Assembly (NCBI GenBank): GCA_945907065.1
Contig: CAMDSC010000003.1
Location: forward strand, 62,001 to 126,000
Reading direction: 5' to 3'
DNA length: 64,000 nucleotides
Source: Chitinophaga pinensis
GTDB lineage: Bacteria; Bacteroidota; Bacteroidia; NS11-12g; UBA9320
Shown here: positions 1,388 through 64,000 of the stretch, in pieces
Layout of the letters: the number at the start of each line of letters is the position of its first letter
Numbering within the stretch: position 1 is the stretch's first letter
The notes under the pieces: generated by a model
What the model was told of the DNA's origin: nothing
Database searches by the model: none
The model's input: the letters and a program-made list of their open reading frames with translations, nothing else
Translations under genes and position numbers: made by a program

Positions 1388-1404
1388 CCGGAACTACTGA
1401 ATTT

Positions 1405-4400
1405 TTATTCTGATTTAATAAATGCTATTGAAACTGTTCCTACTTCTGTAGTATATTTTAAATAATAGGGGCCTGGTTTCAAATTCAGTAAGTCAATTTG
1501 TTCTTCCTTGCTTTTTGTGATTCCACTTATTACTTTTATACCCAATACATTAAATATTTCAAACGTCGAAGGTACCCAAGTGTCTAACTGTTTGAGAACT
1601 AGAAAAGTGTTCGCAGGATTGGGATAAACCTCAATTTTAGACGATTTTATTTTTGATATTCCCAAGGTATTCATAATAATGGTGGTGTCTTTTGTGCATC
1701 CAATATTATCTGTAAGTTCAAGTCGTATAGGTTGCATGTGAGCAAAAGTTCTACTTATAGCCAATGAATCATCGGTTGAATATAAAATATTATTAATAAA
1801 CCATTTTCGGCTTTTAATATTGGTGCTAAAGTCTTTAAATATTACAGATGGATTTCTGAAGGTTACTGTTATAACAGGTTTGGGCAACTGCAAGGCATTG
1901 ATAATTAAAGAATCACTTACTGTGCAAATTTCTATAGTTGCTTCCAACTTTATTTTGTAAGAACCTGGTTTTGTAAATGTACCTGTTAATAATGAATCCC
2001 CTTTCGGAGCGGATGTCCAAGTTGCAAAACCATTACGATTAATTGGAATCCATTTGTGAGTGCCATTGGAATTGCCATATAAATTCATGTCCAATGCTTG
2101 GTTCATACACTTGGTAATTATTGAACTTACAATACTCACAAATGGTTTTTTAATTATAGTGATAGTCATTGTATCTGTATTAAAGCAACCGTTGGTATCA
2201 ATTGCAGTTGCTTTTAAAACTAAAGAATCTTTATTGGTAAACTGAATAAAAATCCTTGAATCGTCAAACCTGATATTATAATCATATTTTGAAGTTGGGT
2301 CATTATCAAATAACAAATCCGATATAAAATTTGAATTACCTGTTGGTTTTGGTAGTGTTTTTAGTAATGACCAATTTATATATGTAAATTTTTCGTTGGG
2401 ATTGAACTTGAAAATTTCAGATTGATTTATTTCTTTCTTTTCCTGACAATATACTCTAGATATTAAATCAATATTTGTAAGTTTATAATTTGTTAAAACA
2501 ATAGTATCGAAGGTTGTGCACCCATTTGCATTAGTTGCACCAGTAATATAAGTTCCTGCTGTATAAGTGTCAATGGAATCAGTACTTCCTATGTTTTTGC
2601 TGTCTTTATACCAATTCCAGGATAAAATTCCGGTATTACTGTTTTTTCCTTTTAATTTGGTGAGTACATCTGGGCAAACTATTTTATCTAACCCTGAAGA
2701 TATAGCTGGGTTGCTCAATACTTTGATGGCCCTATAGGTTGAATTTGTATTATTGTTAGCATCTTTTATACTCAAAAATAAAGTGTCATCCTTTGCAAAT
2801 GACTGATCATAATAACCCATTGTATCAGTTAAAGTATTGGTTTTTGTTTTCCAATTATAAGTAACAGGCCGTTTAGCATTTATAACTTTGGCTCTTAGTC
2901 TAGTTTTTAAATTTTGACATAAACTAGTATCGGTATAAATACCTTGAGCATCTATTCCTAAATTTAATTCCAAAATATTTGAAATTTTTATTGTATCCTG
3001 AACCGTTGTAGAATTGCACTCTGTTTCAGATATGAACGAGGTATTGATAACATAAGTTCCATTTTTCTTAAACACGAAAGTATCGTTTTCTAATGATGAA
3101 TAAACATTGTTAGAGGATTTAAAATAATAGTTGCGAGTGTCTTCTTGATTTGAGGAAGTGATGAATATTCCTGATACATAATTGTATTTTTTATTACTAA
3201 CATTAATTCCTGCTGTATAAGTATAATTATTAACCTTTTTGATGGTACTGCTAACATTTATTTTTGGGTAAACTGTTAATGAAAATGTTTTAATAGTAAT
3301 GCCATTTCTTGGGCAGGCATTATCGGTTGCTATTACACTAAACATAAACGGAAGTTTTTTTGAATCGCCGGTAGCAGGTGTCCACGAAAATCGCCCAACT
3401 GGTAATTTAACACTTGAGTTTGCAATCGTATAGCTAGCATTTTTAATGCCTTTATCCCAGGTGATTTTTACGGTATCGTTTAAAATATTAGCAGCCGGCG
3501 GAACTTGATTAAATGGGTAATCATCTGGTGTAATATCTATGGTAAAATTTTGCCCTTCGCATATTTTATGATTTACTTGCTGGTTGATACTTGGCTGATG
3601 ATTATAACCTGTGATTGAGTAGAACATCTGATCTATAATTATTTCACCAATCTGAATATACTTTCCGGTATTATCTTTTCGCCATTCTTTTACAGAAATA
3701 GCCAAAATTGTTGCCTCTGACGCATTGATAAAAGTCCCAATAAGATTACCTGTTATTGGATTTAAATAAATTCCAATTGGAGGATTATTATCAGGTTTTG
3801 GGCCTTTGGTTTTGTTATACCCGCTGGGGTAATAGGCTGTAAAAGGATTTTTTGAATCCAAACCACTTGTCCAACTTGTTTTGGTGTTCCAATCTTGCAT
3901 TGGGTCTGTAAAACTATAAGATAATGAATCGTTGTCAATGGTGTCTTTTGCAATATAGCTTAGCATTAAAGGCTCATTTGTATAATGAATATAGAGCGGT
4001 TTAAAACTAAATACCGGAGATGAATTGGTGGCAGCGTTGCATAAATCTAAAGTACTAAATACCCAGAAATTTTGATTACCAGAACCTGTTGTAATCCCCC
4101 CATTTCTGCAACATTCCCCAATCCCAATCTGAATGATACAACAACTTTTAAAGGCGGACTCAGTTCCATTAAAATCCAGTGTATCCAAATAGGTGTGTTC
4201 TTCAAAGCCATTGCCAGCTGTTGTATTGGAAGGGTTACACGGTTTGCCAGCTGAGGTGCAAAAGGGTGTAATATCTTCAATACTTATTCGAGTACTTTTG
4301 AGTGTTTTGGTAGCATTTGTGCTAGCACATCGAATTGTGTAACTGCTTAAATTATTTGGTATTCCTCTACAATCTCTATATACCTTATATTTAACCTCAA

Positions 4401-4515
4401 ATTTATAATTACCCAGATATCGATATGTAACTTGACCGCCAGCAGATTGGCCAGCAATTGCTGTGAATATGAAAAGAAAACAGCCTAGCAATGTTAAAGT
4501 TAGTTTTTTTAGCAT
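1405..4515 (-). CDS. Large secreted T9SS cargo protein, type A sorting domain; paralogue of the genes at 51242 and 55095
   Basis: 1036-residue secreted protein with a signal peptide at about residues 1-21. Residues ~25-420 form a Cys-rich region with landmarks YRDCRGIP, KPCNPSNTTAG, EEHTY, CCRNGGITTG, DPMQD and DNACPRN, all shared with the 1553-residue protein at 55095. A second shared block carries LPKPTGNSN. The middle consists of repetitive PKD/Ig-like beta-sandwich sequence. The last ~75 residues (EVYPNPANTF ... GPYYLKY ... IKSE) are a type A 'Por secretion system' C-terminal sorting domain, normally cleaved during outer-membrane export and surface attachment. The function of the mature protein is unknown; surface adhesion or matrix is plausible. 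The sorting-domain class differs from its paralogues. Confidence 0.88.
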   Translation of the reverse strand: MLKKLTLTLLGCFLFIFTAIAGQSAGGQVTYRYLGNYKFEVKYKVYRDCRGIPNNLSSYTIRCASTNATKTLKSTRISIEDITPFCTSAGKPCNPSNTTAGNGFEEHTYLDTLDFNGTESAFKSCCIIQIGIGECCRNGGITTGSGNQNFWVFSTLDLCNAATNSSPVFSFKPLYIHYTNEPLMLSYIAKDTIDNDSLSYSFTDPMQDWNTKTSWTSGLDSKNPFTAYYPSGYNKTKGPKPDNNPPIGIYLNPITGNLIGTFINASEATILAISVKEWRKDNTGKYIQIGEIIIDQMFYSITGYNHQPSINQQVNHKICEGQNFTIDITPDDYPFNQVPPAANILNDTVKITWDKGIKNASYTIANSSVKLPVGRFSWTPATGDSKKLPFMFSVIATDNACPRNGITIKTFSLTVYPKINVSSTIKKVNNYTYTAGINVSNKKYNYVSGIFITSSNQEDTRNYYFKSSNNVYSSLENDTFVFKKNGTYVINTSFISETECNSTTVQDTIKISNILELNLGIDAQGIYTDTSLCQNLKTRLRAKVINAKRPVTYNWKTKTNTLTDTMGYYDQSFAKDDTLFLSIKDANNNTNSTYRAIKVLSNPAISSGLDKIVCPDVLTKLKGKNSNTGILSWNWYKDSKNIGSTDSIDTYTAGTYITGATNANGCTTFDTIVLTNYKLTNIDLISRVYCQEKKEINQSEIFKFNPNEKFTYINWSLLKTLPKPTGNSNFISDLLFDNDPTSKYDYNIRFDDSRIFIQFTNKDSLVLKATAIDTNGCFNTDTMTITIIKKPFVSIVSSIITKCMNQALDMNLYGNSNGTHKWIPINRNGFATWTSAPKGDSLLTGTFTKPGSYKIKLEATIEICTVSDSLIINALQLPKPVITVTFRNPSVIFKDFSTNIKSRKWFINNILYSTDDSLAISRTFAHMQPIRLELTDNIGCTKDTTIIMNTLGISKIKSSKIEVYPNPANTFLVLKQLDTWVPSTFEIFNVLGIKVISGITKSKEEQIDLLNLKPGPYYLKYTTEVGTVSIAFIKSE

Positions 4516-4544
4516 ATGTTTTATTGTTTGTTTTTTTAATAGAC

Positions 4545-4552
4545 CAAAAATA
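4545..4552 (-). promoter_or_regulatory. -7 promoter element of the 1036-aa T9SS cargo gene
   Basis: TATTTTTG on the minus strand fits the Bacteroidota -7 consensus TAnnTTTG and lies about 30 nt upstream of the ATG at 4515. No convincing -33 TTTG is found at the usual spacing. Confidence 0.45.
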
Positions 4553-4686
4553 AGTGAATGGTTGCTAAAAAATATCTAATCAATAAAAAATGACGATGAT
4601 TTGGATAACCAACCCAATTGGTTATAAACAGTTAATAAGTATACTTTTTTTATGAACGGTAAGTTTTAAAAAATATAGATTTCGTA

Positions 4687-4694
4687 TACCTTTG
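4687..4694 (+). promoter_or_regulatory. -7 promoter element of gap
   Basis: TACCTTTG followed by CA matches TAnnTTTG and lies 39 nt before the gap ATG. A TTTT at 4664-4667, 19 nt upstream, is an imperfect -33 box. Confidence 0.55.
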
Positions 4695-4733
4695 CAATCT
4701 AATTAAATTTTAAAATTTTTAACGTCAATTTTA

Positions 4734-6209
4734 ATGAATACAAACACTTTACAAATTAAAAAAGATGCTTACGACAAGGAACTTGAATCGTGGGTAGAAA
4801 AAGAAAAGGCGAGTGCTGATCTTATCAACGCCGTAAGTAAACTCATATACGAGAAGTCGGTAGAACTCGTTTTTTTTAGAAACAACCTAATTGACGTAAG
4901 TAGTTCTGAGGCTCAAAAACTTCATAAATATGCTGAAGATATCATCAGTAAAACAATTGATATTTATGCCACTTCCAAATTAGCAAATGAATTATTGCTA
5001 ATTGAACATTTGGCTCCTTCAAAAATTGATATAGGTAAATTGAGTGATGAATGGACCAATGAAAAAGGTAACTTTTCAGATATGTCTTCTTTTTTAATGG
5101 ATAAATTAAAAGGATTTATAGGCCAGGATATGGCAGCTCTTGCACCAACCGATGTGGTCTTATATGGTTTTGGAAGAATTGGAAGATTGGTTGCCCGCGA
5201 GTTGATCAAATTATCAGGAAAAGGGCAGCAGCTAAAATTAAAAGCTATTGTAACCCGCTCCAGCAGTGATGCCGATATATTAAAACGAGCAGCCTTGTTG
5301 AAAATGGATTCTGTTCATGGTGAATTTAAAGGTACCATTGTTGAAGATTTAGCCAATAAAGCTTTAATTATAAATGGACAGATTGTAAAAATGATTGAAG
5401 CTAGTAAACCCGATGATATTGATTATGAATCGTATGGAATTACTAATGCTGTTTTGATTGATAATACCGGAGCTTTTAGAGATAGAGAATCTTTGGCTTT
5501 GCATTTAAAATCAAAAGGTATTAGCAAGGTTATGCTAACTGCCCCAGGTAAAGGCGATTTGCCAAATATTGTTTATGGTGTAAATCATGAGCAACAAGAT
5601 ATTATTAATGAGAAAATTTTTACAGCGGCATCATGCACTACCAATGCAATTGTACCGATTTTAAAAGTAATTGAAGATAATTTAGGGATAGAACATGGTC
5701 ATATCGAAACCGTCCATGCCTATACCAACGACCAAAACTTGTTGGATAATATGCATAAAAAATTCCGTCGTGGCCGTTCAGCAGCTGTAAACATGGTAAT
5801 TACTGAAACTGGTTCGGCTTCGGCCATTGCTAAAGTAATACCGGGTTTAGCAGGCAAACTTACTGCTAATGCCGTTCGTATTCCTATACCGAATGGTTCG
5901 TTAGCTATTATGAGTCTTAATGTTAAAAAGGCTACCACTATTGCCGATGTAAATGCGATTATGAAAAAAGCAGCTTTGGAAGGTCCTTTGGTAAGCCAGA
6001 TTAAATATTCAATTGATCAGGAATTGGTCTCAAGCGATATTATAGGTAGTTCAACTCCATCGGTTTTTGATAGTCCGGCTACCATCGTTTCGCCTGATGG
6101 AAAAAGTATTGTTTTATACGTTTGGTATGACAATGAATTTGGATATACCAAGCAAGTTATTCGCTTGGCTAAGCACGTTTCTAATGTTAGAAGGAACGTA
6201 TATTTTTAG
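4734..6209 (+). CDS. gap: Glyceraldehyde-3-phosphate dehydrogenase, N-terminally extended form
   Basis: Converts glyceraldehyde-3-phosphate, NAD(P)+ and phosphate to 1,3-bisphosphoglycerate in glycolysis or gluconeogenesis. At 491 residues it is about 150 longer than classical GapA. The extra part is an N-terminal, mostly helical, charged segment (1-~138). The dinucleotide-binding motif YGFGRIGR is at 144-151, the catalytic Cys301 lies in AASCTTNA, and the His328 context is HAYTND; WYDNEFGY closes the catalytic domain. After the second beta strand the sequence reads IVTRSSSD, where NAD-specific enzymes carry an Asp, so NADP or dual use is possible (inference). A promoter element precedes it. 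Extended GAPDHs of this size occur in Bacteroidota beside the short form; no short form is in this window. Confidence 0.93.
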   Translation: MNTNTLQIKKDAYDKELESWVEKEKASADLINAVSKLIYEKSVELVFFRNNLIDVSSSEAQKLHKYAEDIISKTIDIYATSKLANELLLIEHLAPSKIDIGKLSDEWTNEKGNFSDMSSFLMDKLKGFIGQDMAALAPTDVVLYGFGRIGRLVARELIKLSGKGQQLKLKAIVTRSSSDADILKRAALLKMDSVHGEFKGTIVEDLANKALIINGQIVKMIEASKPDDIDYESYGITNAVLIDNTGAFRDRESLALHLKSKGISKVMLTAPGKGDLPNIVYGVNHEQQDIINEKIFTAASCTTNAIVPILKVIEDNLGIEHGHIETVHAYTNDQNLLDNMHKKFRRGRSAAVNMVITETGSASAIAKVIPGLAGKLTANAVRIPIPNGSLAIMSLNVKKATTIADVNAIMKKAALEGPLVSQIKYSIDQELVSSDIIGSSTPSVFDSPATIVSPDGKSIVLYVWYDNEFGYTKQVIRLAKHVSNVRRNVYF

Positions 6210-51241: not shown

Positions 51242-54200
51242 TTATTTAATTAGAGTAATTGTACCACGATACAGGTACTTATGATTTGTAATACTGTTTA
51301 TTTTTATTGAATAAAAGTATACATCAGGGGTGCAAACAATGCTTCCTGCTTTACCATCCCAAGTTTCTTTTGGGTTTTCAGAAGTAAAAACTCTATTACC
51401 CCAACGGTCAAATATTTCAATAAAATAAGAGTTATAATTTTCTAGACTTACGCTAAAAACATTGTTTTTTTCTTCGTCTTTATTATTTGGTGTAAAAGCA
51501 TTTGGTATAAAAATCAGCAAATCTGGGCGTACTACAACCATTTTAGATACCAATGTTAAGCATCCAAAAATATTTGTTCCGTTAAGTAATACTTCGTAGT
51601 TACCTGTATCAGTGTAGCTGTATTTGGGGCTTTCCTCTATTGAGTAATTATCCTCATGTGTAGTTCCAAAATCCCATAACCAACTTAAATTAGGTTCGGA
51701 GTGATTTAGGAACCAAAAATAAGGCTGCATAATAGTTGTCCTATCTGATGGCTGAATACTGAAATTTACTAATGGTTTTGGATTAATATAAAGATTGAAT
51801 GAGATTGAATCTGTGCAAAATAAATTTCTGGTATGAAACGAAAGATTATGTTTGGATGCCTCTAATTGATTTGTGTTAAAATTAGTTTCATTTCCTATTT
51901 TATTTCCATTTTCAATCCATGAATTTATTAATTCATCATCACCAAGATACTTAATTATTGGGGTGATTATATAGTCTGAGTTTTGGCAAATAGTTGTATC
52001 CTTAAATGCCTCTATTTTTGGATTATCATAAACATTAATGCTGAATTCTTTTAATGTTTCACATCCTTCGGAATTCATAGCTTTTGCAAGCAAAGATTGA
52101 GAAATATTGCCTTTCTCAAAACTGCAATGAATAATATTAAGACTTTCAAAATTTTCAATTCTAGAGGTCTTAAGCTCAGTTGATTTGCCTGAATACAAAA
52201 AGTTGATAGAATTAGAATTAAGAACTGAACCTGAAATTAATATTGATTCAGAATTGCAGAAATTTAATTTGTTGGGCGAAAAATTTACATGTGGTGATGG
52301 TAAAATATTTACATTTTGTGTTTCAGTAAAATTGCAATTACCCTCTTTAATGATGTAGCTAAGAGAATGCTTTTGAGCTGTATTTAGTAATGGAGGATTA
52401 AATGAGTTACCCGAAGTATTGTTACCTTGCCATGAACCGCCCAATGGATTTGCTGATAATGTAACCGGAAGTTCAGAATCACAAATTGTATTTTTTAGTC
52501 CGTTAATTTTTATTTCAGGCTTACAAGCGATTTTAACTATTACAGTTTTTAAATCATAGCAACCATAATTATCATAAACATAACTTACTTCAAATTGCCC
52601 ACAAGTATCTGTTAATACTGAAGTTTTATCATTAAATAAACGAAAATCAATAAAAGACCAATTCCCATTATTGGGCTTCACACCTGATAATTTTGTAATA
52701 TCAATGACTCCTGATTGTTGACATAAATTTATTTCATTTTCAAATGTTATATGCACTGCAGGTGTAATTTCAATAAATGCAGTATCCCTATTTTTGCAGC
52801 CATTGGAGGCGGTAAGTTCCCCTTGATATTCTAGTTTCCCGAATCCAATTTCATTTGGGTAAAATAATTTATAGCCATTTTCTTCTTTTATCTTATCAGG
52901 GAATAATGGAAGTTCCCAAACAAAAGAGTAATCAGAAATTTTATAGGGTTTACTAATAAAATGTTCAAATAATACAGGTGTTTTAATTTCGCAAATGGAA
53001 ATTGAACTAAGTTCAAATTCAGGAACAGCTAATAGTACTAAAGGAATATCTTTGGATGCTGTACATCCTGATTGAGTAATTTTATAATTAAGAAGAATGG
53101 TATCGTTATAATAAAACGGGGTAAAATTTGTGTTAATAATCCCATTACTGAATGCTGGATTGCTCGATGACCATTGACCATCAGAAGGAATTATTGCAAA
53201 GTTTTTTAAATTAAAATTTTCTGATTTATGACAAATTTCAAATCTTTCATTACTTAATATTTTAGGTAACACTATTACTGAAATATTTTTTCGCAAAGTA
53301 TCAGTACAAATCCATTTACCCAAATGAAAAGTAAGGATTGCATTAAGTTGGCCATCTTTATCAAATCGATTCGTGATGGAATTTATATTACCAATATTTT
53401 CGCCACTATAAATCCACTTTGTTGTAAATTTAGTTAATGGGGCTTTACTTATGATAAACGAATAATCAGTTCCCTTACATAAACTATCTTTACCTGAAAT
53501 AAATGCAGATGTACCTAAGGTTAAATTATAAATTGTGTCAATCAGTATTGTTTCGCATCCGTTAAATGAGCTAAGGACAGATTTTAGGATAAATTTTCCT
53601 TGAGGCAATGAGCTAATAGTATCATGAGGTAAGTTTGTATAGAAGAGTTCTTTGTTAGGATTTTTTGCATTAAATAAAAGTATAGTGAGGTTGGATTTAA
53701 TATTAAAATTTGAGGCTTGCAATTCAAAATTTCCACATCCCAAATCAGTATATTTTACTTTTAATTCTTCTTTAGGCTTAACTTTTATCAAAATAATTTG
53801 AGAACTAACTGCATTTAAAGGACAAAAGTTATCAATTGCTGAAACAGAAAATGAATAAAATTGATTTGTTGAAGCACCTTTTGCAGGAGTCCACTTAAAT
53901 AAACCATAATTATATGGTGCGGTATTTTGAGTTATTTGACTAAATGAACTTCCATTTATGCTTGAACTTAAAAAATAATTAACGCTGTCATCAACCATTG
54001 TGAACGAATTTTTTGCATCTGTAGTTTCAACTTTTATAGTTAAAGGTTCTTCTTCACAAATTTCATAATAATCTTTGTTTAAAAATTTTGGAGAACTGTT
54101 GCCATCACTGGTTTTTACATATACTTGAATGTCACGTTTAATGTAACCTATGAGTTCCCATTTCCCAGATATTTTTCTGTATTCTTCTACTTTTACAGCT

Positions 54201-55042
54201 ACAATTCCAATTTCTGAATCTTTGGTAGGAATAAATACTGTTGTTCCATTTGATTGATCAAAATAAAAACCGGTTTCTTTAAATTTATCTGAGTTGCATG
54301 GAGTAATATCGGTACAATAAACAGTCAATGGATTTGAATAATTAAATCCACTATAATAATTCACTTCTTTATTAATATCAAATAAAGCAGGAGCTAGGCT
54401 ATATACTAAAGAATCTTTATCAGAATCGGTTGCAAAGTAACTTTGGTATTGAGTTTTGTTGGCATTAATTATAAAAGTTGGGGACGAAACAAAGTTGGGA
54501 GAATTATTTTTGCTGTCAAGACAAGTTTGAATAAATGCATCAATGCAAAAATTCTGCTTAGCGGCTCCGGTTGTTATAGCATTATTTCTTTCAGCAAAGG
54601 ATACATATAAATAGTAATTACAAAATCCTTTTATCTTGTAGTTATCTAAATCGATTATTGCCGAAAATTGCTGTAACTCAATTCCAAATATTGAATTTGA
54701 ACTAGAGTTGCAAACTGAAATCTTGCTTTTGCATAATGGAGTAACATCAGCTATTTTTTCACGGGTTAGTGTGAATTTTGTTTCTGCGGCATTTGTATTA
54801 TCTGTACCTTTTACATATAAATAATCTATTTCCGAACAATTATCTATAGTACTTCCTCCACCATTGCCATTTATTTTACAACCATTACAATCACGATAAA
54901 TATTTAAAGTTACTTTGTATTGGTTATCTTTTATGTGTTTGTAAAATAGTTCACCTCCAAGAACGTGTGAAGCATAAGTATATGATCCATAAAACAAGGA
55001 AAGGCATATTAAAATATGTCTGTAAATATGTTTCATAATCAT
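51242..55042 (-). CDS. Giant surface protein with gliding-motility-type (type B) T9SS C-terminal domain, 1266 aa
   Basis: 1266 residues. Signal peptide to about residue 24 (YTYAS), an N-terminal Cys-rich region distantly matching the other two family members (IYRDCNG, DVTPLCKS), beta-sandwich middle, a PKD-like domain near the C-terminus (WLWDFGTTHEDN..SPKYSYTDTGNYEV), and a final type B sorting domain (FIPNAFTPNNKDEEKNNVF...IFDRWGNRVF...WDGKAG...YFYSI...GTITLIK). Surface adhesin or filament-type protein by family; function unknown. ATG at 55042 or 55036. Follows the 1553-aa gene across a hairpin only 9 nt long from the start. Confidence 0.88.
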   Translation of the reverse strand: MIMKHIYRHILICLSLFYGSYTYASHVLGGELFYKHIKDNQYKVTLNIYRDCNGCKINGNGGGSTIDNCSEIDYLYVKGTDNTNAAETKFTLTREKIADVTPLCKSKISVCNSSSNSIFGIELQQFSAIIDLDNYKIKGFCNYYLYVSFAERNNAITTGAAKQNFCIDAFIQTCLDSKNNSPNFVSSPTFIINANKTQYQSYFATDSDKDSLVYSLAPALFDINKEVNYYSGFNYSNPLTVYCTDITPCNSDKFKETGFYFDQSNGTTVFIPTKDSEIGIVAVKVEEYRKISGKWELIGYIKRDIQVYVKTSDGNSSPKFLNKDYYEICEEEPLTIKVETTDAKNSFTMVDDSVNYFLSSSINGSSFSQITQNTAPYNYGLFKWTPAKGASTNQFYSFSVSAIDNFCPLNAVSSQIILIKVKPKEELKVKYTDLGCGNFELQASNFNIKSNLTILLFNAKNPNKELFYTNLPHDTISSLPQGKFILKSVLSSFNGCETILIDTIYNLTLGTSAFISGKDSLCKGTDYSFIISKAPLTKFTTKWIYSGENIGNINSITNRFDKDGQLNAILTFHLGKWICTDTLRKNISVIVLPKILSNERFEICHKSENFNLKNFAIIPSDGQWSSSNPAFSNGIINTNFTPFYYNDTILLNYKITQSGCTASKDIPLVLLAVPEFELSSISICEIKTPVLFEHFISKPYKISDYSFVWELPLFPDKIKEENGYKLFYPNEIGFGKLEYQGELTASNGCKNRDTAFIEITPAVHITFENEINLCQQSGVIDITKLSGVKPNNGNWSFIDFRLFNDKTSVLTDTCGQFEVSYVYDNYGCYDLKTVIVKIACKPEIKINGLKNTICDSELPVTLSANPLGGSWQGNNTSGNSFNPPLLNTAQKHSLSYIIKEGNCNFTETQNVNILPSPHVNFSPNKLNFCNSESILISGSVLNSNSINFLYSGKSTELKTSRIENFESLNIIHCSFEKGNISQSLLAKAMNSEGCETLKEFSINVYDNPKIEAFKDTTICQNSDYIITPIIKYLGDDELINSWIENGNKIGNETNFNTNQLEASKHNLSFHTRNLFCTDSISFNLYINPKPLVNFSIQPSDRTTIMQPYFWFLNHSEPNLSWLWDFGTTHEDNYSIEESPKYSYTDTGNYEVLLNGTNIFGCLTLVSKMVVVRPDLLIFIPNAFTPNNKDEEKNNVFSVSLENYNSYFIEIFDRWGNRVFTSENPKETWDGKAGSIVCTPDVYFYSIKINSITNHKYLYRGTITLIK

Positions 55043-55050
55043 TATTCAAA

Positions 55051-55085
55051 ATAAAAAGGAGCAGAAAATTTCTGCTCCTTTTTAT
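55051..55085 (-). terminator. Strong hairpin between the two type B surface-protein genes
   Basis: Stem AAAAAGGAGCAG (55053-55064) with CTGCTCCTTTTT (55072-55083), extendable to the A/T ends, 7-nt loop, T-run on the minus strand. It lies 9 bp after the 1553-aa gene stop and 8 bp before the ATG of the next gene, so it terminates or attenuates read-through. Confidence 0.88.
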
Positions 55086-55094
55086 AAAATTATT

Positions 55095-58000
55095 TTATCG
55101 AACCAAAGTAACGGTGCCGTTGTACTTATATAGTTCACCAGAAAAACTAGTAACATTAACCTGGTATACATAAGCATCCATTTGACAAATTTCTCCTTTG
55201 TATTTTCCGTCCCATGGTTTATCAAGCTCATTGGATTCATAAAGCCTTTCGCCCCATCGGTTAAAAATTAATATTTGGTAGGTTATATAACCACTTGCTT
55301 CCACCCAAAATTTATCATTTTTTAATGGGCCTGAACCGTCTGGCGAAAATACGTTAGGTATATAAACTAATATATCTGGATCAATAATTACAAGCCTTTC
55401 AGCAGTGTCACTGCATCCGTGATTTGTAACAACTATCAATCTAACCATATATTTTCCTGTATCACTTGTATAGTAATATTCTGGATTAGCTTTTGAAGAG
55501 GTATCAGTATCAATATTTAAATCGCCAAAATCCCAAAGATTACTTACTATTTTACTTCCTAAAATAAGCTGTTTTGTGCTACTTTCATTAGTAAATCTAA
55601 AGCGAGGCAATGCTGCTGTAGTTCTGTTATTAGGATTAGGAGTAAATCCGGCAACTGGTATTGGATAGGCTTCTATTGGCAGTGGGCCAAGCGTGGTATC
55701 ACATCCAAATTCACTTGTAATTTTCAGTTTCACATCAAATGGTCCTGCGTTATTATAGGTATGCGATGTGTTTTGAGTAGTGGCATCAGTTGGTTCGCCA
55801 AAGGTCCATAAAAATTTAGCTTTTGATGAATCAACACCGTTATTTATCCTACTTGTGAAATTTGTTATATGAGGTACGCAACCGTTTGGATCATCCACTG
55901 AAAATACAGCATGTGGTTTTGGACGAATAATAATAGTCATGGCATCCTGAGCGAATGGACAAACTCCTTCAGCTTCCGTGTAGCAAGTGATTAATATTGT
56001 GGTAGCACTATCGCTTCTTGGTCTGATAGTGAAAGTGGTAGGGTTAAGATTACTTAACTGATTATTACTTTCAAAACTAGCTCTTAACGGATCAGCACTG
56101 TGCACCCAATTTATTTTACTTGTAAATTTATAATCAGCAGTAAGTTTCATATCCATAACATTGCTTCTGCAAGTATCTTTATCTGGTGTAATAATATCTA
56201 CAACCGGTTTACTTTGTACAAATACTTTTAAGCTTTTAGCTGTATCGCATTTAGTTGTAGGATGTGTATAGCTATAAGTTAAAGTAATGTATTTATCCCT
56301 TTCGGTTGATGGAACTGCCGATGGCCTAAATTTATCAGAAAAGATAACTCCTGGAATTGAACTTGACCAAAAACCTCCAGCAGGACTTCCATTTAAAGTT
56401 ACTTCAGGGTCTATTTCGCAGAATTTTCCTTGGTCTCCAGTTGGTGATATACTAATAGTAACTTTAGGCAAAGGATTAATTCTTAAGTTGGTATCGCGCT
56501 GAACAGGGCAACCACTAGCTGTATGGATGTATCGCATCCTATACAGGCCGGGGCCATTTATTAAATTCAATTTTAAAGTATTTAAGCTGTCACAACCTAT
56601 CATTCCAGGTAATAGAAAATTTCTGCTCTTAAAACCTGAAGTATCAACTACTGTCCAGCAACCATCATCCGGTTGAACATTGGAAATGCTTTTTAAATCA
56701 ACAATACCTTTATCTATGCATAAATCAGGAAATATTTTGAAAGTTATTTTTGGAACTTTCCATATAAATATAGTCATAGTATCTTTATTAGAACAACCGG
56801 CTCCATCCATTACTGTTACTTCAAGTTTAATAGAATCTTTAGGTGATTTACCAATGTCAATAGTTCCTGAATCTACTTTTAATCTAAAATCATAACCCAT
56901 TCCAGGGTCAGCATCATATACCAAATCGGTAATAGTGTTACTTCCTCCGGATGGTTTAGGTAGAGTTCTTATTAATTTCCATTGCACATCTACCATTGAG
57001 TTAAGTTTCACAGGTGCCAAAATATGTGGTGCCATTTTAGCCTCAAGTACATCCTGACAATAGTAACCGCCTTTTAATACAATTGGAGGCAATGGATTTA
57101 CTGTGAATACTGTACTATCTTTATTTATACAAGTAGTACTTGGATCCTGATAAGTGTATACCATAGTAAAAACACCTGCTTTATTGGGATCGCATACTGG
57201 TCTTGTATCAAATGCACCACCAAGACCTTCTACATAGCCTGGTTTTTCTCTGCAAAGCCAATCGCCACCTGTTGGTGCCCCATAGGTGGCACTACCTAAT
57301 GCTATATTTCCATAATCACAGCAGAATTTTTGTGGGGCAATAAGCGTGAGCACGGGTAATGGAACTACTTTTATAAAGGTTGTATCAAAACCATAACATC
57401 GTGTAGTATCCTCTTGCACTTGCAACTCTAGTAAATAATTATCTGATTTTTTAGGAACAGAATACCATTTTTCCAAACGGCTTGCACCTGCTCCGGCCCT
57501 TGGCAAGCCTTTATACCAAATATAAGTACCACTTTTTCCATTTCCAATTGTATCTAATCCTGAAGCGTATAATAATAAAGTATCATTAAAACATATAGTT
57601 TGGTCAGGACCAGCGTTAGGATAAAGAGTATCGTTCACAAATAAGTTTAATGTATCTGTCCAAGTACAACCCAAACTGTCAGTAACAGTTGCATTATAAA
57701 CACCTCGCTCAGTAAAGGTAGCAAAAGTATCAGTGCTAAAATCAATGCCGTTTCTTTTCCAGTTCCACCAAAGTGTATCTCCTTGTGGTAAGGTATCACC
57801 TATTTGAGCGTCAATCCAATATGCATTTTTTGCATTTGGCCTTAAAGTTACACTTCCATACCAGCATATTCTTAAATCTGGCCCCATATCTACTTTTGGA
57901 TTTGGTTTTAAAAATACATTTACTGTATCATAAGCAAAACATGTATTATCGTCCCTTATTTCAACGCGGAATGTAGTGTCATGACTACTCATAAATACAT

Positions 58001-59717
58001 CAATATAATCCAATGTATCTTTCGGGTCAAAAGCGGTTGGAGTAAACCATTTATAACTAAATCTAGGCACACCATGTGTTGATTTAGCTCCTAATCTTAA
58101 AGTGGTTCCTGCACATACAAAGCTATCAGGACCAAGTGCTAGGTTAACCTCTAAAAGTGGTGGAACTATTAAGGTATCAAAATAATCTGTAGGACAGTTA
58201 AGCGGAGGATTATTTATTCGATGATGAATAATATATTTTCCGCCTTTTCTAAACTGAACTGTATCTATTGGCTTATTTGACTTTAAGGCATTGCTGGGCT
58301 TAAAGTAATAGTATCGTTTATCTAAAGACTGATTATTTGAATCTGAAATCTCCCACAAATAAGCCGGTGAACCCTTGAAATTGACGCTCACTTTGCTTTC
58401 AAATGTATATAATCCGCATATACCTTTTGTATAGGTTCTAACTGTTTCGGCTATTTGTTTTACTTTAACGGAATAGGATTTTACAGTTACCGCATTTCTA
58501 GGGCAGGCATTATCACGTGCAGTTACGGTAAATGTATACGGTAAATCACTGTATTGATTTTTCTTTGGGGTCCAACAAAATTTCCCCTTTTGAAGTCGTT
58601 CTTTTGGGTCAACAATATTAAAGGTAGCTCCAGGTATACCTCGATTCCATGTTAACCTTACGGTATCCGGTGGATTGGGTTTGGCAGGTGGTGGCGGTAT
58701 AAACTGCTTGTCATCAGAGGTTACCGTAAAACATATCTGACTGCCGGCACATACATCGTATTTATAAGGGCCATACAGCAAAGGTGGATTATTATCCGGA
58801 CAGGTTATTACCCAAAACTGAACATCACGATGGGTTATTCCAATATTAACATATTTGCCTGTTGAATCTTTTCGCCATTCTGTTACTTTTATACTGGCTA
58901 CTGTACTTTCGCTACAATCGGTTGGGGTAAAAATAATATCTCCAGTTTCTTTGTCTAAATAAGTTCCAATTGGAGGATTCACGTTAGGGTTTGGACCTTT
59001 ATTTTTGTCATAACCAATTGGCCAATAATCTTTAAACGGGTTTTGAGAAGTGTTTCCTCCTGACCAGGAGGTTTTTGAACTGAAATCCTGCATTGGATCA
59101 TCCCATGCATAGGATAATGAATCAAAATCAGTAGTATCTGATGCACCGTTGTTATAATAGTATGGCTGGTTGCAGCAAAGAATAGCTACAGGCTCTGAAG
59201 TTAATGAAGGAGATGAATTACAATTTTTTTGACAAATATCAATTTCAGCAGTGGTCCAGAAATTTTGGTTGGCAGCACCCGAAGTAATCGCACCATTTCT
59301 GCAGCATTGTCCACTACCAATTGTTACCCTGCAGCATCCGTTTTTTCTAATGGTTGAAAAATCGTAAGTTACTGTATATGTGTGTTCTTCAACCCCTTGT
59401 CCAGCTGTAGTATTGGGTGGGTTACATGGTTTTCCTCCTCCGGCACAAGTTGGAGTTACATCTCTTACCCTTATTTCGGTAGGGGTAAAGCTGGCTAACT
59501 GTGTTCCAGTGCTAGTACATCTGATAATAGAACCAGGAGCTCCAATAGGAACCCCTCTACAATCCCTGTACATTTTTATAGTAATTTCATACTTATTACT
59601 TCCCAAGCATTTGTAGCTAATGTCAGCCCCCATCATGTGTGTGGCCTGAACATTTTGGGTTAAACCCGCAACTGCCAAAACAATAAAAGCTAAACCTTTA
59701 ATAGCAAGTTGTTTCAT
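55095..59717 (-). CDS. Giant surface protein with type B T9SS C-terminal domain, 1540 aa
   Basis: 1540 residues from the ATG at 59717 (MKQLAIKGLAFIVLAV...), the better start because it opens the signal peptide; an in-frame codon 13 residues upstream is disregarded. After the signal (cut near QATHMM) comes the Cys-rich N-terminal region with YRDCRGVP, KPCNPPNTTAG, CCRNGAITSG, DPMQD and ACPRNAVTVK, then long runs of beta-sandwich/PKD-like domains. The C-terminus (YIPNVFSPDGSGPLKNDKF...ILIFNRWGERLYES...WDGKYKG...GTVTLVR) is a gliding-motility-type CTD. Closest relative in the window is the 1036-aa type A protein. Exported by T9SS; structural surface protein by family. Confidence 0.9.
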   Translation of the reverse strand: MKQLAIKGLAFIVLAVAGLTQNVQATHMMGADISYKCLGSNKYEITIKMYRDCRGVPIGAPGSIIRCTSTGTQLASFTPTEIRVRDVTPTCAGGGKPCNPPNTTAGQGVEEHTYTVTYDFSTIRKNGCCRVTIGSGQCCRNGAITSGAANQNFWTTAEIDICQKNCNSSPSLTSEPVAILCCNQPYYYNNGASDTTDFDSLSYAWDDPMQDFSSKTSWSGGNTSQNPFKDYWPIGYDKNKGPNPNVNPPIGTYLDKETGDIIFTPTDCSESTVASIKVTEWRKDSTGKYVNIGITHRDVQFWVITCPDNNPPLLYGPYKYDVCAGSQICFTVTSDDKQFIPPPPAKPNPPDTVRLTWNRGIPGATFNIVDPKERLQKGKFCWTPKKNQYSDLPYTFTVTARDNACPRNAVTVKSYSVKVKQIAETVRTYTKGICGLYTFESKVSVNFKGSPAYLWEISDSNNQSLDKRYYYFKPSNALKSNKPIDTVQFRKGGKYIIHHRINNPPLNCPTDYFDTLIVPPLLEVNLALGPDSFVCAGTTLRLGAKSTHGVPRFSYKWFTPTAFDPKDTLDYIDVFMSSHDTTFRVEIRDDNTCFAYDTVNVFLKPNPKVDMGPDLRICWYGSVTLRPNAKNAYWIDAQIGDTLPQGDTLWWNWKRNGIDFSTDTFATFTERGVYNATVTDSLGCTWTDTLNLFVNDTLYPNAGPDQTICFNDTLLLYASGLDTIGNGKSGTYIWYKGLPRAGAGASRLEKWYSVPKKSDNYLLELQVQEDTTRCYGFDTTFIKVVPLPVLTLIAPQKFCCDYGNIALGSATYGAPTGGDWLCREKPGYVEGLGGAFDTRPVCDPNKAGVFTMVYTYQDPSTTCINKDSTVFTVNPLPPIVLKGGYYCQDVLEAKMAPHILAPVKLNSMVDVQWKLIRTLPKPSGGSNTITDLVYDADPGMGYDFRLKVDSGTIDIGKSPKDSIKLEVTVMDGAGCSNKDTMTIFIWKVPKITFKIFPDLCIDKGIVDLKSISNVQPDDGCWTVVDTSGFKSRNFLLPGMIGCDSLNTLKLNLINGPGLYRMRYIHTASGCPVQRDTNLRINPLPKVTISISPTGDQGKFCEIDPEVTLNGSPAGGFWSSSIPGVIFSDKFRPSAVPSTERDKYITLTYSYTHPTTKCDTAKSLKVFVQSKPVVDIITPDKDTCRSNVMDMKLTADYKFTSKINWVHSADPLRASFESNNQLSNLNPTTFTIRPRSDSATTILITCYTEAEGVCPFAQDAMTIIIRPKPHAVFSVDDPNGCVPHITNFTSRINNGVDSSKAKFLWTFGEPTDATTQNTSHTYNNAGPFDVKLKITSEFGCDTTLGPLPIEAYPIPVAGFTPNPNNRTTAALPRFRFTNESSTKQLILGSKIVSNLWDFGDLNIDTDTSSKANPEYYYTSDTGKYMVRLIVVTNHGCSDTAERLVIIDPDILVYIPNVFSPDGSGPLKNDKFWVEASGYITYQILIFNRWGERLYESNELDKPWDGKYKGEICQMDAYVYQVNVTSFSGELYKYNGTVTLVR

Positions 59718-59782
59718 TCTGTTTTTAAAATTTGTTTGTTGTAATGATTTTATCATAACTGCGCTAAATTATATATATTAAT

Positions 59783-61282
59783 TTAAAATATTAGTATTTT
59801 TTTTGTAATAATTTGATTTTCAGATTTAAAAGTAAAATAATAGATTCCTTTGTTTTCCATTATCAACGTGTTATTCACTTTTGTATTTAATTCTCTAACT
59901 AATTGACCAAACTGATTAGAAATCGATAGCTCTTCAAAGCCACTCATCCAATTTTGGTAAATATTTTCATTACTTAAAGCTGGATTTTTTAACGTAAATT
60001 CTAATGATTCTAATTTTTTTGAAGTATTTAAAATCTGCCTAGCCCAATTGTTTTTTATTTCATCAGCTTTATTAGCTAAGAAAATATAAGGGTCACCATT
60101 ACTTTTATCATAGCCTGAAATGGCAATATCCAATTCGATATATTCTTTTGATACTAAAGTGGGATATGACATGTTTGCCAACATACTTCTTTCGCCGGCT
60201 GCTGTGTTTTCTTTCCATGTTTGGCCATTAAAATCAGGATCGGTATTGCCCGAATATATAAATTTTGCTTGCGATGTATTGCTCATTCCATCACTGCCAA
60301 AGGTTAATAATTTTGCAGTTTTCCAATTGCCCAACATCATATTTCTATGCTGATGAGGGGCTATTGGCATTCCGCTATTAATGGCGGTATCATTAGTAAT
60401 ATAGAGGGTTGACGATAGTTTTTTGTTTAAAATCATTAATGAAGCTAATGGTTGGGTAATGCCAAAATGATTGTCATCATTAGCATCTCCATTGTATGAA
60501 AAAATCATATTTTTTGGAACAATTGTTCCGCAATAATTGTCTTTATCATTCCCCAGTTGAAAACCGGCATGAAACGAAACATTGATATCTTTATAATTTG
60601 TATTGGTGCGGTTGATAATAAAATACTTTGCAAAAACGGTATTTGGAGCATCTGCCAAGGTATATGCCAATCCATATATTTCAATTTTCAAGGGTTGACC
60701 ACTCGAAGCTTTGTGCTCTGAATAATTATCATTTACTATAAAATAGGAAGCCTTAGTACCTAAAATTTCAGGATAATCACCTTTTGTAGGGTCATATTTT
60801 CCATCTTTATCAAAATCAATAAATGGTGCTAAATATTTATTAAAACGTTCGGTACCATTGGATGGCCAGTTTTTAATGGCATCACTCAAAATATAGTTTG
60901 TGTTTTGAAAGTTTTTTCTATGCTCTTGAATTTGGACTGCTGAAACCGACCAAACTTTATTCCACACTAATGGATCCGCTCCTTTATAGTTTAAACTGTC
61001 AATTGGCCCAGGGCTATAATCCGATTTATTAGTAAAACCATTTACACTGGTAATGTGCAATTTATTTGAGTCATCATTGCCCGAAATCCAGAGATTAATA
61101 AATTTGAAAAGATTATTATTGCTTCCGGCAGGTAGCTCGGAAGCAGCACTGTTATTGAATGTAGCCATTTCGCCATCGGCATTAACTCTAAGCTTCAGTT
61201 GGCCAGATTCTATCCAGTCACCATTTACCTGAGCAAAGGTATTAATGCTAATAAATAGTAATATGATGGCTGCTAATCTCAC
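59783..61282 (-). CDS. Secreted T9SS cargo, 499 aa
   Basis: 499 residues. Signal peptide to ~18 (NTFAQ). The mature part holds IDFDKDGKYDPTKGDYPEILG, a dockerin-like/thrombospondin-type calcium-loop pattern, then beta-rich sequence. The last ~80 residues (LEFTLKNPALSNENIYQNW..SGFEELSISNQFGQLVREL..NKGIYYFTFKSEN..KKILIF) follow the type A sorting-domain pattern, though the usual YPNP opening is degenerate. It starts 2 bp after the membrane-anchored barrel gene ends, so it is co-transcribed with the sigma factor unit. Confidence 0.78.
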   Translation of the reverse strand: MRLAAIILLFISINTFAQVNGDWIESGQLKLRVNADGEMATFNNSAASELPAGSNNNLFKFINLWISGNDDSNKLHITSVNGFTNKSDYSPGPIDSLNYKGADPLVWNKVWSVSAVQIQEHRKNFQNTNYILSDAIKNWPSNGTERFNKYLAPFIDFDKDGKYDPTKGDYPEILGTKASYFIVNDNYSEHKASSGQPLKIEIYGLAYTLADAPNTVFAKYFIINRTNTNYKDINVSFHAGFQLGNDKDNYCGTIVPKNMIFSYNGDANDDNHFGITQPLASLMILNKKLSSTLYITNDTAINSGMPIAPHQHRNMMLGNWKTAKLLTFGSDGMSNTSQAKFIYSGNTDPDFNGQTWKENTAAGERSMLANMSYPTLVSKEYIELDIAISGYDKSNGDPYIFLANKADEIKNNWARQILNTSKKLESLEFTLKNPALSNENIYQNWMSGFEELSISNQFGQLVRELNTKVNNTLIMENKGIYYFTFKSENQIITKKILIF

Positions 61283-61284
61283 TT

Positions 61285-62598
61285 TTATTTTGTTAAATTA
61301 TACCTTGCTCCAACACTCAAATTAATGCCAAAATTTCGTTGACGAACAATGGCATCATTATTTAATCGGTTGCTAATATTGGTATAGTAAGAAATTTCGG
61401 TAATAGCTATGCAATTTGGGTTTAAAGGATATTGCAAGGCGATGGCACTATAAATTGAAGTCTTAATTTTCGCTGATTCTTGATACTTTACCAAATTTAT
61501 ATCATTTCCTTCTCTAACTAAAACAGTAGCTATATTTTTTGAAGCAATATTTAATAGTGAACCCGCTGAAACCCGATATTGAAATTTGCCCAAACCAAAG
61601 GTATAACCCAATACTACAGGAATATTAAAAGTGGAGTAATGGTTGGTGGTATTAAATTTATAATTTACAGTTTCCTTTGAATATGTAGAATCAATTACTT
61701 TAATTATCTGTGGCGGTAATACCGGATGAAATACGTTTACCTGACGGGGAGTTTGAGTAAGTTTGTCATGAATTTCAGAACGATTGTAATTAACTTTTTC
61801 GTTTCTGTTTTCCCAAGTCAAACCCGATTGTACCGACCATCTTGGATTTACATGGTAATTAACTTTTAGGCCGGTTTGTAATGATAAATTAGCTTTTTCA
61901 GATTCATTTCTCAATTCACTTCCTAGGCCTGATAAGGAACGGAAAGCAAAGGATGGGCCACCAACCATTTCAATAGAATATTTATAACCCAACCCAACTT
62001 CTTCTTTTTCCTTGTTTTTAGTAAGGTATTTTTTTCCTAACCGTTTGGTGGTATAAACATACTGCATTAGTGATGGATAAATGAGATAGTGTAGTTTTAC
62101 AACATGTTTAGAAGCCATTATAAACGGCAAATTTTCGATATCATAATTTGAGTTTTCATGGGAGATAACGTCTTCGGTTATTTCAACTTCTTGTTTGGTT
62201 TTTACACTATTTGAAAGGGTATTCTTTTTGGCTTTTAAAACTTCAATTCTGGAAGTAGAATTGGAAATGTTCAAATTTTTATTAGATGTTACAGATTCAG
62301 AAATGACAGGATTTTCGGTATTCCTGTTTTTTAAATTACCCTCAATAATTGTGTTATTATCAGATGCTGGGGTATTCACTGAAGTAATAGTTTCATCCGT
62401 GTTAGTGGTAAAATAATAGGCAGATACTACCGCCATTGATAGCAATAAAATAGCAGAGGCTATTTTCCATCTATAGAAAAATAAACCTTTGCGTTTTTTC
62501 TTTTGGATATTGCTCCATACATGAGCAGGAGGGGTTTCTTCAAAATTTTGAAGTCCTTCCTGAAACATGCGTTCCATATCGTTAAATTCCGAATTCAT
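61285..62598 (-). CDS. Single-TM protein with anti-sigma-like N-terminus and beta-barrel-like C-terminus
   Basis: 437 residues with an unusual layout: a cytoplasmic N-terminus (~1-43) with the 'PPAHVWSNIQKKK' motif of Bacteroidota sigma-linked proteins, one TM helix (~44-62), a Ser/Thr/Asn-rich spacer (~63-200), then an outer-membrane beta-barrel-like domain (~205-437; SIEMVGGPSFAFRSL, GLTWENRN, NIPVVLGYTFGLG, NFGINLSVGARY). The gene overlaps the end of the ECF sigma gene by 17 bp and is followed after 2 bp by a T9SS cargo gene. It probably holds or releases the sigma factor from the inner membrane in response to a surface state (inference). No closer name can be given. Confidence 0.7.
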   Translation of the reverse strand: MNSEFNDMERMFQEGLQNFEETPPAHVWSNIQKKKRKGLFFYRWKIASAILLLSMAVVSAYYFTTNTDETITSVNTPASDNNTIIEGNLKNRNTENPVISESVTSNKNLNISNSTSRIEVLKAKKNTLSNSVKTKQEVEITEDVISHENSNYDIENLPFIMASKHVVKLHYLIYPSLMQYVYTTKRLGKKYLTKNKEKEEVGLGYKYSIEMVGGPSFAFRSLSGLGSELRNESEKANLSLQTGLKVNYHVNPRWSVQSGLTWENRNEKVNYNRSEIHDKLTQTPRQVNVFHPVLPPQIIKVIDSTYSKETVNYKFNTTNHYSTFNIPVVLGYTFGLGKFQYRVSAGSLLNIASKNIATVLVREGNDINLVKYQESAKIKTSIYSAIALQYPLNPNCIAITEISYYTNISNRLNNDAIVRQRNFGINLSVGARYNLTK

Positions 62599-63124
62599 CT
62601 TTTTTAATTTTATCTAATTTTTCTCTTAAAAATTGTCTTGCTCTTAAATATTGTGATCGCGAAGTTGCTTCTTGTATATGAAGCATTTCGGCAATTTCTT
62701 TGTGTGAATATCCTTCTACTGCAAAAAGGTTAAAAACTAATTTATAACCTTGTGGCAATTCGTTAACTAATTTCATCAAATCCATAAGTGATAAATTAGA
62801 AGTTACTTTTTCATCAGTGGATGGATGTTCAACCCCCTCGAAGCTATAAACCTCATGCGACCTAATGGTAACGTATTTATTTCTTAGCGCAGTGTGAATC
62901 ATAATTTTTCGTATCCAACCCTCAAATGAACCTGTAAATTTAAAAGTGTCGATTTTATTAAAAACCTTAATAAATCCATCTTGAAGAACATCTTCTGCTT
63001 CCATGCGGTTGGCGCAGTATCTAAGGCAAAGTCCAAACATCTTTGGTGAAAAGCGTTTGTAAACTTCATATTGGTACGATTCCTTGCCTTTAATACATCC
63101 TTTAATAAGCTCTTCATCACTCAT
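62582..63124 (-). CDS. ECF-type RNA polymerase sigma factor (head of surface-protein cluster)
   Basis: About 180 residues from the ATG at 63124 (MSDEELIKGCIKGKESYQ). An in-frame TTG at 63169 would add 15 residues. Region 2: YCANRMEAEDVLQDGFIKVFNK and GWIRKIMIHTAL; region 4: LPQGYKLVFNLFAVEGYSHKEIAEMLHIQEATSRSQYLRARQ. Its end overlaps the anchored-barrel gene by 17 bp, a strong sign of joint regulation. A -7-like AACCTTTG lies upstream at 63198-63205 (minus strand). The four genes after it encode membrane and T9SS surface proteins. Confidence 0.92.
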   Translation of the reverse strand: MSDEELIKGCIKGKESYQYEVYKRFSPKMFGLCLRYCANRMEAEDVLQDGFIKVFNKIDTFKFTGSFEGWIRKIMIHTALRNKYVTIRSHEVYSFEGVEHPSTDEKVTSNLSLMDLMKLVNELPQGYKLVFNLFAVEGYSHKEIAEMLHIQEATSRSQYLRARQFLREKLDKIKKDEFGI

Positions 63125-63422
63125 CAACTTTAAATGGTCATTGTTATTTTTTGGGTTATTCAAAATCAAGACTCTGCTTATGAGTAATTCGCTGCTTCAA
63201 AGGTTATAAATTTTATTATTTTATTATTAATATTTACTAAATATTTGATTTTTAGAAATTTAATATTTTAAAATGACTCTTAACCTTGAAAGTTTTTGGT
63301 TTGCAATTGTAACATTTATTTATATTTCAATTCAACATTAAATTTTAAGGACTTTAAAATAAAAATAGACAGAAAATTAAAAGATTATTTATAAGACATT
63401 TGCGGCAGACAAATTAATTAGT

Positions 63423-64000
63423 ATGAAAAAAATATTAGTTCCGACCGATTTCTCGCCATTATCAGATAATGCACTTGATTTTGCTTGCCAAATTGCTAAA
63501 CAAATGAAAAGTGAAATTATATTGATAAATATTCAAAGCTTGCCTGCTAATGATGATGCCAGCATGGCCATTGAATTAATAAAAACCATTGAGGATTCGG
63601 CCAAAAAGAGATTAAAAACTCAGCACGATGAGATTAAAATTGAACATGAAGGGCTTAAAATTTCAACTCATTTTTCATTTGGTATTCCTTCACTTGCCAT
63701 CAAAGAATATTTAGAAACTAAAGAATTTAATTTAGTGGTAATGGGTACTAAGGGAGCTACCGGAGTTGATAAATTTTTATTTGGCAGCGTGGCTGAAAGT
63801 ATTTCAAAACATTCTTCTTGCCCTGTTATAATTGTTCATGCAGAAAATAAATACAAACCTGTAAAACATATTGCAGTGCCAATGGATATTAATTACAAGT
63901 TTGGCGAATCGCACAAAATGATTCAAAAAATTGTGGAATATGCCGAAATGTTTACAGCAGATTTAAACTGGTTTTATGTAAATACATCAAAAAAAGATTA
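63423..64000 (+). CDS. Universal stress protein family, tandem-domain (3' truncated by window)
   Basis: First ~192 residues seen; the frame is open to the window edge. Begins MKKILVPTDFSPLSDNA; the Usp-type ATP-binding motif G-2x-G-9x-G-S is intact in GTKGATGVDKFLFGSVAES, followed by SSCPVIIVHAE. After the first domain a second one starts (HIAVPMDINYK), so this is the two-domain form common in Bacteroidota. Stress-linked regulation is the known family role; specific function unknown. Confidence 0.9.
   Translation, partial: MKKILVPTDFSPLSDNALDFACQIAKQMKSEIILINIQSLPANDDASMAIELIKTIEDSAKKRLKTQHDEIKIEHEGLKISTHFSFGIPSLAIKEYLETKEFNLVVMGTKGATGVDKFLFGSVAESISKHSSCPVIIVHAENKYKPVKHIAVPMDINYKFGESHKMIQKIVEYAEMFTADLNWFYVNTSKKD

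Follow-up and report, generated by a model that had tools for sequence, protein, structure and literature searches.

The window analysed here, a 64,000-nucleotide stretch of a Chitinophaga pinensis genome, carries on its reverse strand an operon in which genes for an extracytoplasmic function (ECF) sigma factor and a 437-residue barrel protein precede genes for cargo of the type IX secretion system (T9SS). We consider it likely that the two proteins are an ECF sigma factor and its dual membrane-spanning anti-sigma factor, a pair of the Dma/Das type dedicated in this bacterial order to T9SS surface proteins. The control protein would probably extend from inside the cell out to the outer membrane and govern genes for secreted surface proteins. 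In Bacteroidota, the way in which the production of huge T9SS cargo is matched to the secretion machine has been worked out to some extent only for the PorXY-SigP system of Porphyromonas gingivalis.

Gene order and promoter element

The gene order, read at 45 loci (one per genome, from two families of the order), is conserved far beyond chance. At 43 loci, the gene immediately upstream of the barrel gene encodes a sigma factor; the other two are a contig end (L074) and a locus where no sigma gene was called (L123). Cargo of the 499-residue type directly follows the barrel gene at 41/45 loci, and GIANT1, a giant T9SS type B protein, comes next after the cargo at 34. Giants were counted by BLAST labels; the profile labels for GIANT1 and GIANT2 were swapped because both proteins share PKD and CHU_C domains. 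Overlaps of 4 bp are common, for example between the sigma and barrel genes of relatives, and suggest translational coupling. In the window itself, the overlapping sigma and barrel genes, the adjacent cargo gene and the two type B giants lie where a preliminary description of this DNA had placed them (Table 1), and the three-gene order it described is conserved in related genomes.

Beyond the order, a profile scan that covered 296 genomes across the phylum detected this head, transmembrane (TM) and barrel architecture in other families of the class, with an ECF sigma gene directly upstream at 20/20 of these distant loci. Cargo or giant genes, searched for with the profiles built in this analysis, followed the pair at 0/20. 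The sigma-barrel pair is therefore general, its attachment to T9SS cargo being seen, by these profiles, only in this order.

The window's genome holds a further sigma/TM-barrel pair (L299 1099-2912, G000:C43; region 1099-5341), followed by an 810-residue T9SS type A cargo (TIGR04183, 42 bits). Together with the window pair and the sister pair described below, it makes three pairs that immediately precede T9SS cargo-like genes, so that a single genome contains several sigma/anti-sigma systems in parallel, all of them on T9SS cargo operons. The L299 barrel gene probably starts at a TTG that overlaps the sigma stop.

This proximity of cargo and barrel genes, which are often a few bases apart or overlapping, raises a cargo-feedback reading, in which the type A cargo encoded with the pair, after export, docks onto the outer side of the barrel or stays trapped behind it, and the pair tells the sigma factor whether export has succeeded or is blocked. 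The 41 loci with adjacent cargo and the second sigma-barrel-type A cargo operon at L299 favour it, as does PorA, a C-terminal domain (CTD) protein that relays a surface signal to PorXY-SigP in Porphyromonas (PMC7712824). PorA, however, works via a two-component system rather than an anti-sigma factor, conservation across genera is much weaker in the barrel than in the sigma factor, and cargo-barrel contact is hypothetical. We regard such feedback as unlikely.

An ECF-type promoter-like element precedes the sigma gene (Table 1), at the same distance in all six genus members readable at the locus. Upstream alignment gives its general form as GC[AC]NC, 17-18 bases and GTC, lying some 70 nt ahead of the sigma start in the majority of loci; in block content and spacing we take it to resemble an ECF promoter. 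Counted with this one pattern, the element stands upstream of 39/42 sigma genes versus 2/207 unrelated genes of the loci. It also precedes 11 of 39 GIANT1 genes in relatives, the window's GIANT1 having no copy of its own, and none of the barrel (0/44), cargo (0/41) or GIANT2 (0/23) genes. At L139 and L092, where other genes detach the giant from the sigma-barrel pair, the element is still found upstream of the giant. L071 9603-19001 contains a tandem GIANT1 duplication with the element on the first copy only.

Because the element precedes sigma genes and some GIANT1 genes, it is reasonable to infer that the sigma factor autoregulates its own operon and controls the giant. Across the whole genome of the window, a longer pattern specific to the genus has a single occurrence, at this operon, and the predicted promoter offers a means of finding regulon members. 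A sigma-70 promoter scan stayed at chance level and was not used. A TTG start of the sigma gene at 63169 (195 residues) was rejected because it would fall right on the conserved -10-like GTC.

At the junction of GIANT1 and GIANT2, a strong hairpin is present at 14 of 16 loci, its sequences being unrelated between distant genera. Because of this hairpin, the transcription unit most likely comprises four genes, for the sigma factor, the anti-sigma factor, the type A cargo and the type B giant, and GIANT2 probably lies outside it. The preliminary description had followed the module with two giants, of which GIANT1 keeps its place in the unit and GIANT2, beyond the terminator-like hairpin at 55051-55085, probably does not.

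Architecture of the 437-residue protein

Folding of the 437-residue protein from its single sequence gave an unusable model, with a mean predicted local distance difference test score (pLDDT) of 34. The AlphaFold2 model made from an alignment of 45 relatives (A3) has a mean pLDDT of 72 and divides the chain into four parts (Table 1). Residues 4-17 form a short helix and residues 25-65 a single long helix, within which lies the hydrophobic segment that begins at residue 46, giving a two-helix head. The tether is essentially disordered, with a pLDDT mostly below 50 across residues 67-202, and the barrel fold spans residues 207-434, mostly at a pLDDT above 90. Fold comparison matches the barrel to the OmpA TM domain (Z 16-18, root-mean-square deviation (rmsd) 2.2-2.9) and to 8-stranded NspA, OprF and OmpW (Z 16-18, rmsd 2.1-3.2 across these and OmpA). 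By sequence, the 437-residue protein reaches no family cut-off, its sub-cut-off Pfam matches being barrel families only; a sequence-profile search of solved structures returned nothing relevant for the barrel family, and a viral fold search returned generic barrels only.

The same parts can be followed through the relatives. All 45 carry a single strong hydrophobic segment at the same place near the N-terminus (19 residues long with a mean hydropathy of 1.4-2.6, inside the N-terminal ~70 residues). Identity within the genus is about 60% in both head and barrel and 31% in the tether, the least conserved part. The conserved head pattern is roughly E-x(2)-P[PS]-x(2)-[LV][FW]-x(2)-I, so that the 'PPAHVW' segment singled out in the preliminary description is present as the local form of a looser motif. 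The single TM helix and spacer of ~140 residues given in that description agree with the model, and the C-terminal part, which it had taken for a barrel rather than a soluble periplasmic domain, models as an OmpA-like outer-membrane barrel.

Because of this head/TM/tether/barrel layout in the model and in relatives, the 437-residue chain is predicted to be able to span cytosol, inner membrane and outer membrane, with the barrel predicted to insert in the outer membrane and the head presumably binding the sigma factor. The model supports the earlier proposal of a single chain running from the cytosol to the outer membrane; that proposal is not new, however, because it has been published for Dma1/Dma2 (PMC13088901) and for the Phocaeicola anti-sigma factor (PMC9308784).

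Table 1. Features of the operon and parts of the 437-residue protein (nucleotide positions in the window; residue numbers for protein parts)
Feature	Position	Strand	Details
ECF sigma factor gene	62582-63124	-	180 aa from ATG; Pfam Sigma70_r2 and Sigma70_r4_2 above cut-offs
Barrel gene, Dma-like anti-sigma candidate	61285-62598	-	437 aa; 17-bp overlap with sigma gene
T9SS type A cargo gene	59783-61282	-	499 aa; GTG start; 2-bp gap after barrel gene
GIANT1, giant T9SS type B PKD protein	55095-59756	-	1553 aa; 26 bp after cargo gene
GIANT2, second giant T9SS type B protein	51242-55042	-	1266 aa; 52 bp after GIANT1; conserved neighbour
ECF-type promoter-like element GCAGC-N18-GTC (GCAGCGAATTACTCATAAGCAGAGTC)	63170-63195	-	ends 45 nt before sigma ATG
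Terminator-like hairpin	55051-55085	-	16 pairs; palindromic, scan gave + strand, reads same on operon strand
Head of 437-residue protein	residues 1-45		AlphaFold2
TM helix of 437-residue protein	residues 46-65		AlphaFold2
Disordered tether of 437-residue protein	residues 66-202		AlphaFold2
Predicted 8-stranded outer-membrane barrel of 437-residue protein	residues 203-437		AlphaFold2

The 499-residue protein fits T9SS type A cargo in both termini, with the type A sorting domain TIGR04183 (27.2 bits versus a cut-off of 23, NCBIfam) and a signal-like, hydrophobic N-terminus ending in FAQ. Its residues 63-363, which no Pfam family covers, resemble part of a ~1300-residue protein present in nearly every searched genome of the order. 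GIANT1 and GIANT2 reach 36.6 and 41.5 bits, respectively, with TIGR04131 (cut-off 35), and both contain PF13585 and PKD repeats. The window's genome, a 2.7-Mb draft in 63 contigs, carries SprA, the T9SS translocon, and T9SS is therefore present. The nearest named relatives with the locus (genus alignment A2) are uncultured environmental Bacteroidetes metagenome-assembled genomes. Within the genus, a divergent UspA-type stress gene (63423-63998 in the window; L061-L065) flanks the sigma gene, and no match to it was found beside the sigma gene in other genera.

A sister system with a T9SS sorting domain

A profile search of the window's genome found a sister pair, in which a sigma gene is followed by a gene for a 286-residue protein (L193 4981-5841); the two span L193 4435-5841 (G000:C40), and other members lie at L195-L212, L085 and L298. 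The 286-residue protein has the same kind of head and TM helix, a linker and a C-terminal CHU_C domain (53.7 bits, cut-off 27), which is a T9SS type B sorting signal. Across the 20 proteins of the sister family (alignment A4), PF13585 is found in 20/20 at E <= 0.01, all members lying above the cut-off when scored singly, and TIGR04131 in 20/20 at E <= 0.01, the member in the window's genome scoring 32 bits, just below the cut-off of 35. Head-plus-TM profiles of the barrel and sister families align with an hhalign probability of 97% (96% for the cytosolic parts alone), versus at most 2.4% for reversed, column-shuffled and linker controls. For the sister family, a sequence-profile search of solved structures gave only weak matches.

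The shared head bears on whether the 437-residue protein is an anti-sigma factor at all. TM-plus-barrel proteins of ~400-420 residues with no evident head and no adjacent sigma gene were found at L300 7878-9125 (G000:C1), L086 1014-2261, L087 8185-9381, L088 7307-8551, L089 539-1777 and L091 6672-7937, and are possibly inner-to-outer membrane tethers. Their existence would fit a structural role, in which the 437-residue protein too is a tether between the membranes and the sigma factor is controlled otherwise. These sigma-less proteins, however, appear to lack the conserved head, which is present beside sigma genes and common to the family with the T9SS sorting domain, and for relatives described in the literature, knock-out genetics favour a function as anti-sigma factor (PMC9308784, PMC13088901). 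We judge a purely structural role highly improbable.

The sister system is present in 7/7 genus genomes and many genomes of the second family, about 20 genomes, and occurs once outside the order, without a giant (L298). At nearly all loci, a gene for a giant of about 1830 residues, with a CHU_C end where scanned, comes after its anti-sigma gene, and a YbjN-like gene comes before its sigma gene. The YbjN-like protein (~155 residues; L193 3866-4360, same place in L195-L211) matches the YbjN and CesT-like families of Pfam weakly. In one family, the sister operon is followed by an MnmE gene, a PorP/SprF assignment having been rejected. Sister sigma factors group in a single clade that excludes all barrel-type sigma factors (support 99/98), and a GGCAACC-like element with a second block precedes 17/21 of their genes versus 1/143 other genes. 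Outside the window's genus, the sister anti-sigma proteins retain the basic residue with which the giants end; within it, they end in L, F or Y.

A system of this kind, ending in a type IX export tag, appears undescribed and is the more novel lead. The literature searched held no description of an anti-sigma factor with a T9SS signal; the one paper that surfaced, on PorA, has a different subject. The tethered sorting signal suggests that T9SS itself is read, although the domain could instead be a mere periplasmic Ig-like module. With an outer-membrane barrel as one anti-sigma end and a T9SS export signal as the other, the T9SS reading lends itself to a direct and simple test. Tentatively, and with more doubt than confidence, we propose that in this order a single anti-sigma head is combined with either of two interchangeable outer-envelope ends, both wired to T9SS cargo operons. 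The sister protein, anchored in the inner membrane, would be a tethered mock cargo; should T9SS attempt its export or merely bind it, the tether could signal free capacity or blockage of the machine directly to its sigma factor, which would then drive production of more giant cargo. The barrel system would play the equivalent part at the outer membrane.

The sister system also bears on an envelope-stress alternative, in which the barrel, as suggested for the pair in Phocaeicola, reports outer-membrane damage or failure of barrel assembly, the T9SS cargos form a protective coat and T9SS is not sensed. The best-studied relative responds to toxin-induced envelope stress (PMC9308784), and all 20 distant loci have the sigma-barrel pair without T9SS cargo neighbours. 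In this order, however, T9SS cargo is almost invariably the output, and a T9SS signal takes the place of the barrel in the sister system. Output and signal together suggest that secretion or surface cargo contributes to the input, and we rate the envelope-stress alternative as a serious possibility that falls somewhat short of even.

Proposed mechanism and comparison with known systems

In the Dma/Das-type mechanism that we propose, the short cytosolic head of the 437-residue protein would, at rest, hold the sigma factor at the inner membrane, and the TM helix and disordered tether would lead to the barrel, predicted to have 8 strands and to sit in the outer membrane. A change in that membrane or at its surface, by analogy with Bacteroides either envelope damage or a surface ligand, would release the sigma factor. 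Once freed, it would transcribe its own operon from the GC[AC]NC-N17/18-GTC promoter, yielding more sigma factor, anti-sigma factor, type A cargo and adhesin-like giant; in several relatives, the giant would be driven also from its own copy of the promoter. Anti-sigma factor made from the same transcript would close the loop. The barrel system may respond to the state of the envelope or to docking of cargo; that it senses the surface or T9SS specifically, as the preliminary description had supposed, is an inference.

Several points weigh against this mechanism. The head is modelled at low confidence, with block pLDDT values of 57-72 across residues 1-50. Head-sigma binding, barrel insertion, the signal and the regulon are deduced from model, sequence and analogy. 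The promoter consensus was counted in the loci from which it was derived, and its controls exclude chance but not another conserved function of the element. The likeness to Dma1 and Dma2 rests on architecture and neighbourhood, not on alignment.

By architecture and gene neighbourhood, we class this locus as a Dma/Das-type system. The Dma family of Bacteroides thetaiotaomicron combines a sigma-binding domain, a TM helix, a disordered tether and a barrel, encoded beside an ECF21 sigma gene, Dma3 being a sigma-fused form (PMC13088901). Dma1-Das1 and Dma2-Das2 share with the window's pair the N-terminal head, the TM helix, the long tether, the C-terminal barrel, the adjacent cognate ECF sigma gene and the placing of their own operon among the main targets, here predicted from the promoter element. 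The targets of Dma2 (BT_1558) are its own operon, polysaccharide utilization loci (PULs) and outer-membrane vesicle production, in a paper that makes no mention of T9SS (PMC13088901), whereas the operon here carries type A and type B T9SS cargos. In Phocaeicola vulgatus, the periplasm-spanning barrel anti-sigma factor M0N98_03760 represses the sigma factor M0N98_03761, whose own gene rises 33-fold under toxin attack, a pair that its authors liken to a sigma/anti-sigma pair of B. fragilis (PMC9308784). M0N98_03760 resembles the 437-residue protein in spanning the periplasm, in its C-terminal outer-membrane barrel and in the position of its gene directly downstream of the sigma gene; its regulon, by contrast, gives toxin resistance and longer O-antigen, and no T9SS cargo is described with it (PMC9308784).

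PorXY-SigP of Porphyromonas gingivalis shares an autoregulated ECF sigma factor tied to T9SS, with the CTD protein PorA upstream (PMC4800418, PMC7712824); it differs in being a two-component system for which no membrane-spanning anti-sigma factor is described, and in controlling the T9SS machine, not a cargo operon. In FecI-FecR and the Bacteroides PUL ECF systems, an outer-membrane event likewise frees an ECF sigma factor, but through a separate FecR-type anti-sigma factor and a TonB-dependent receptor, neither of which adjoins this operon. A FecR/TonB-receptor reading of the locus was ruled out: the 437-residue protein has no FecR match, and its operon neighbours are T9SS cargos. The sigma-barrel architecture itself is thus not new, whereas its wiring to T9SS cargo appears to be, and would extend the Dma family from the vesicles and polysaccharide use of Bacteroides to secretion.

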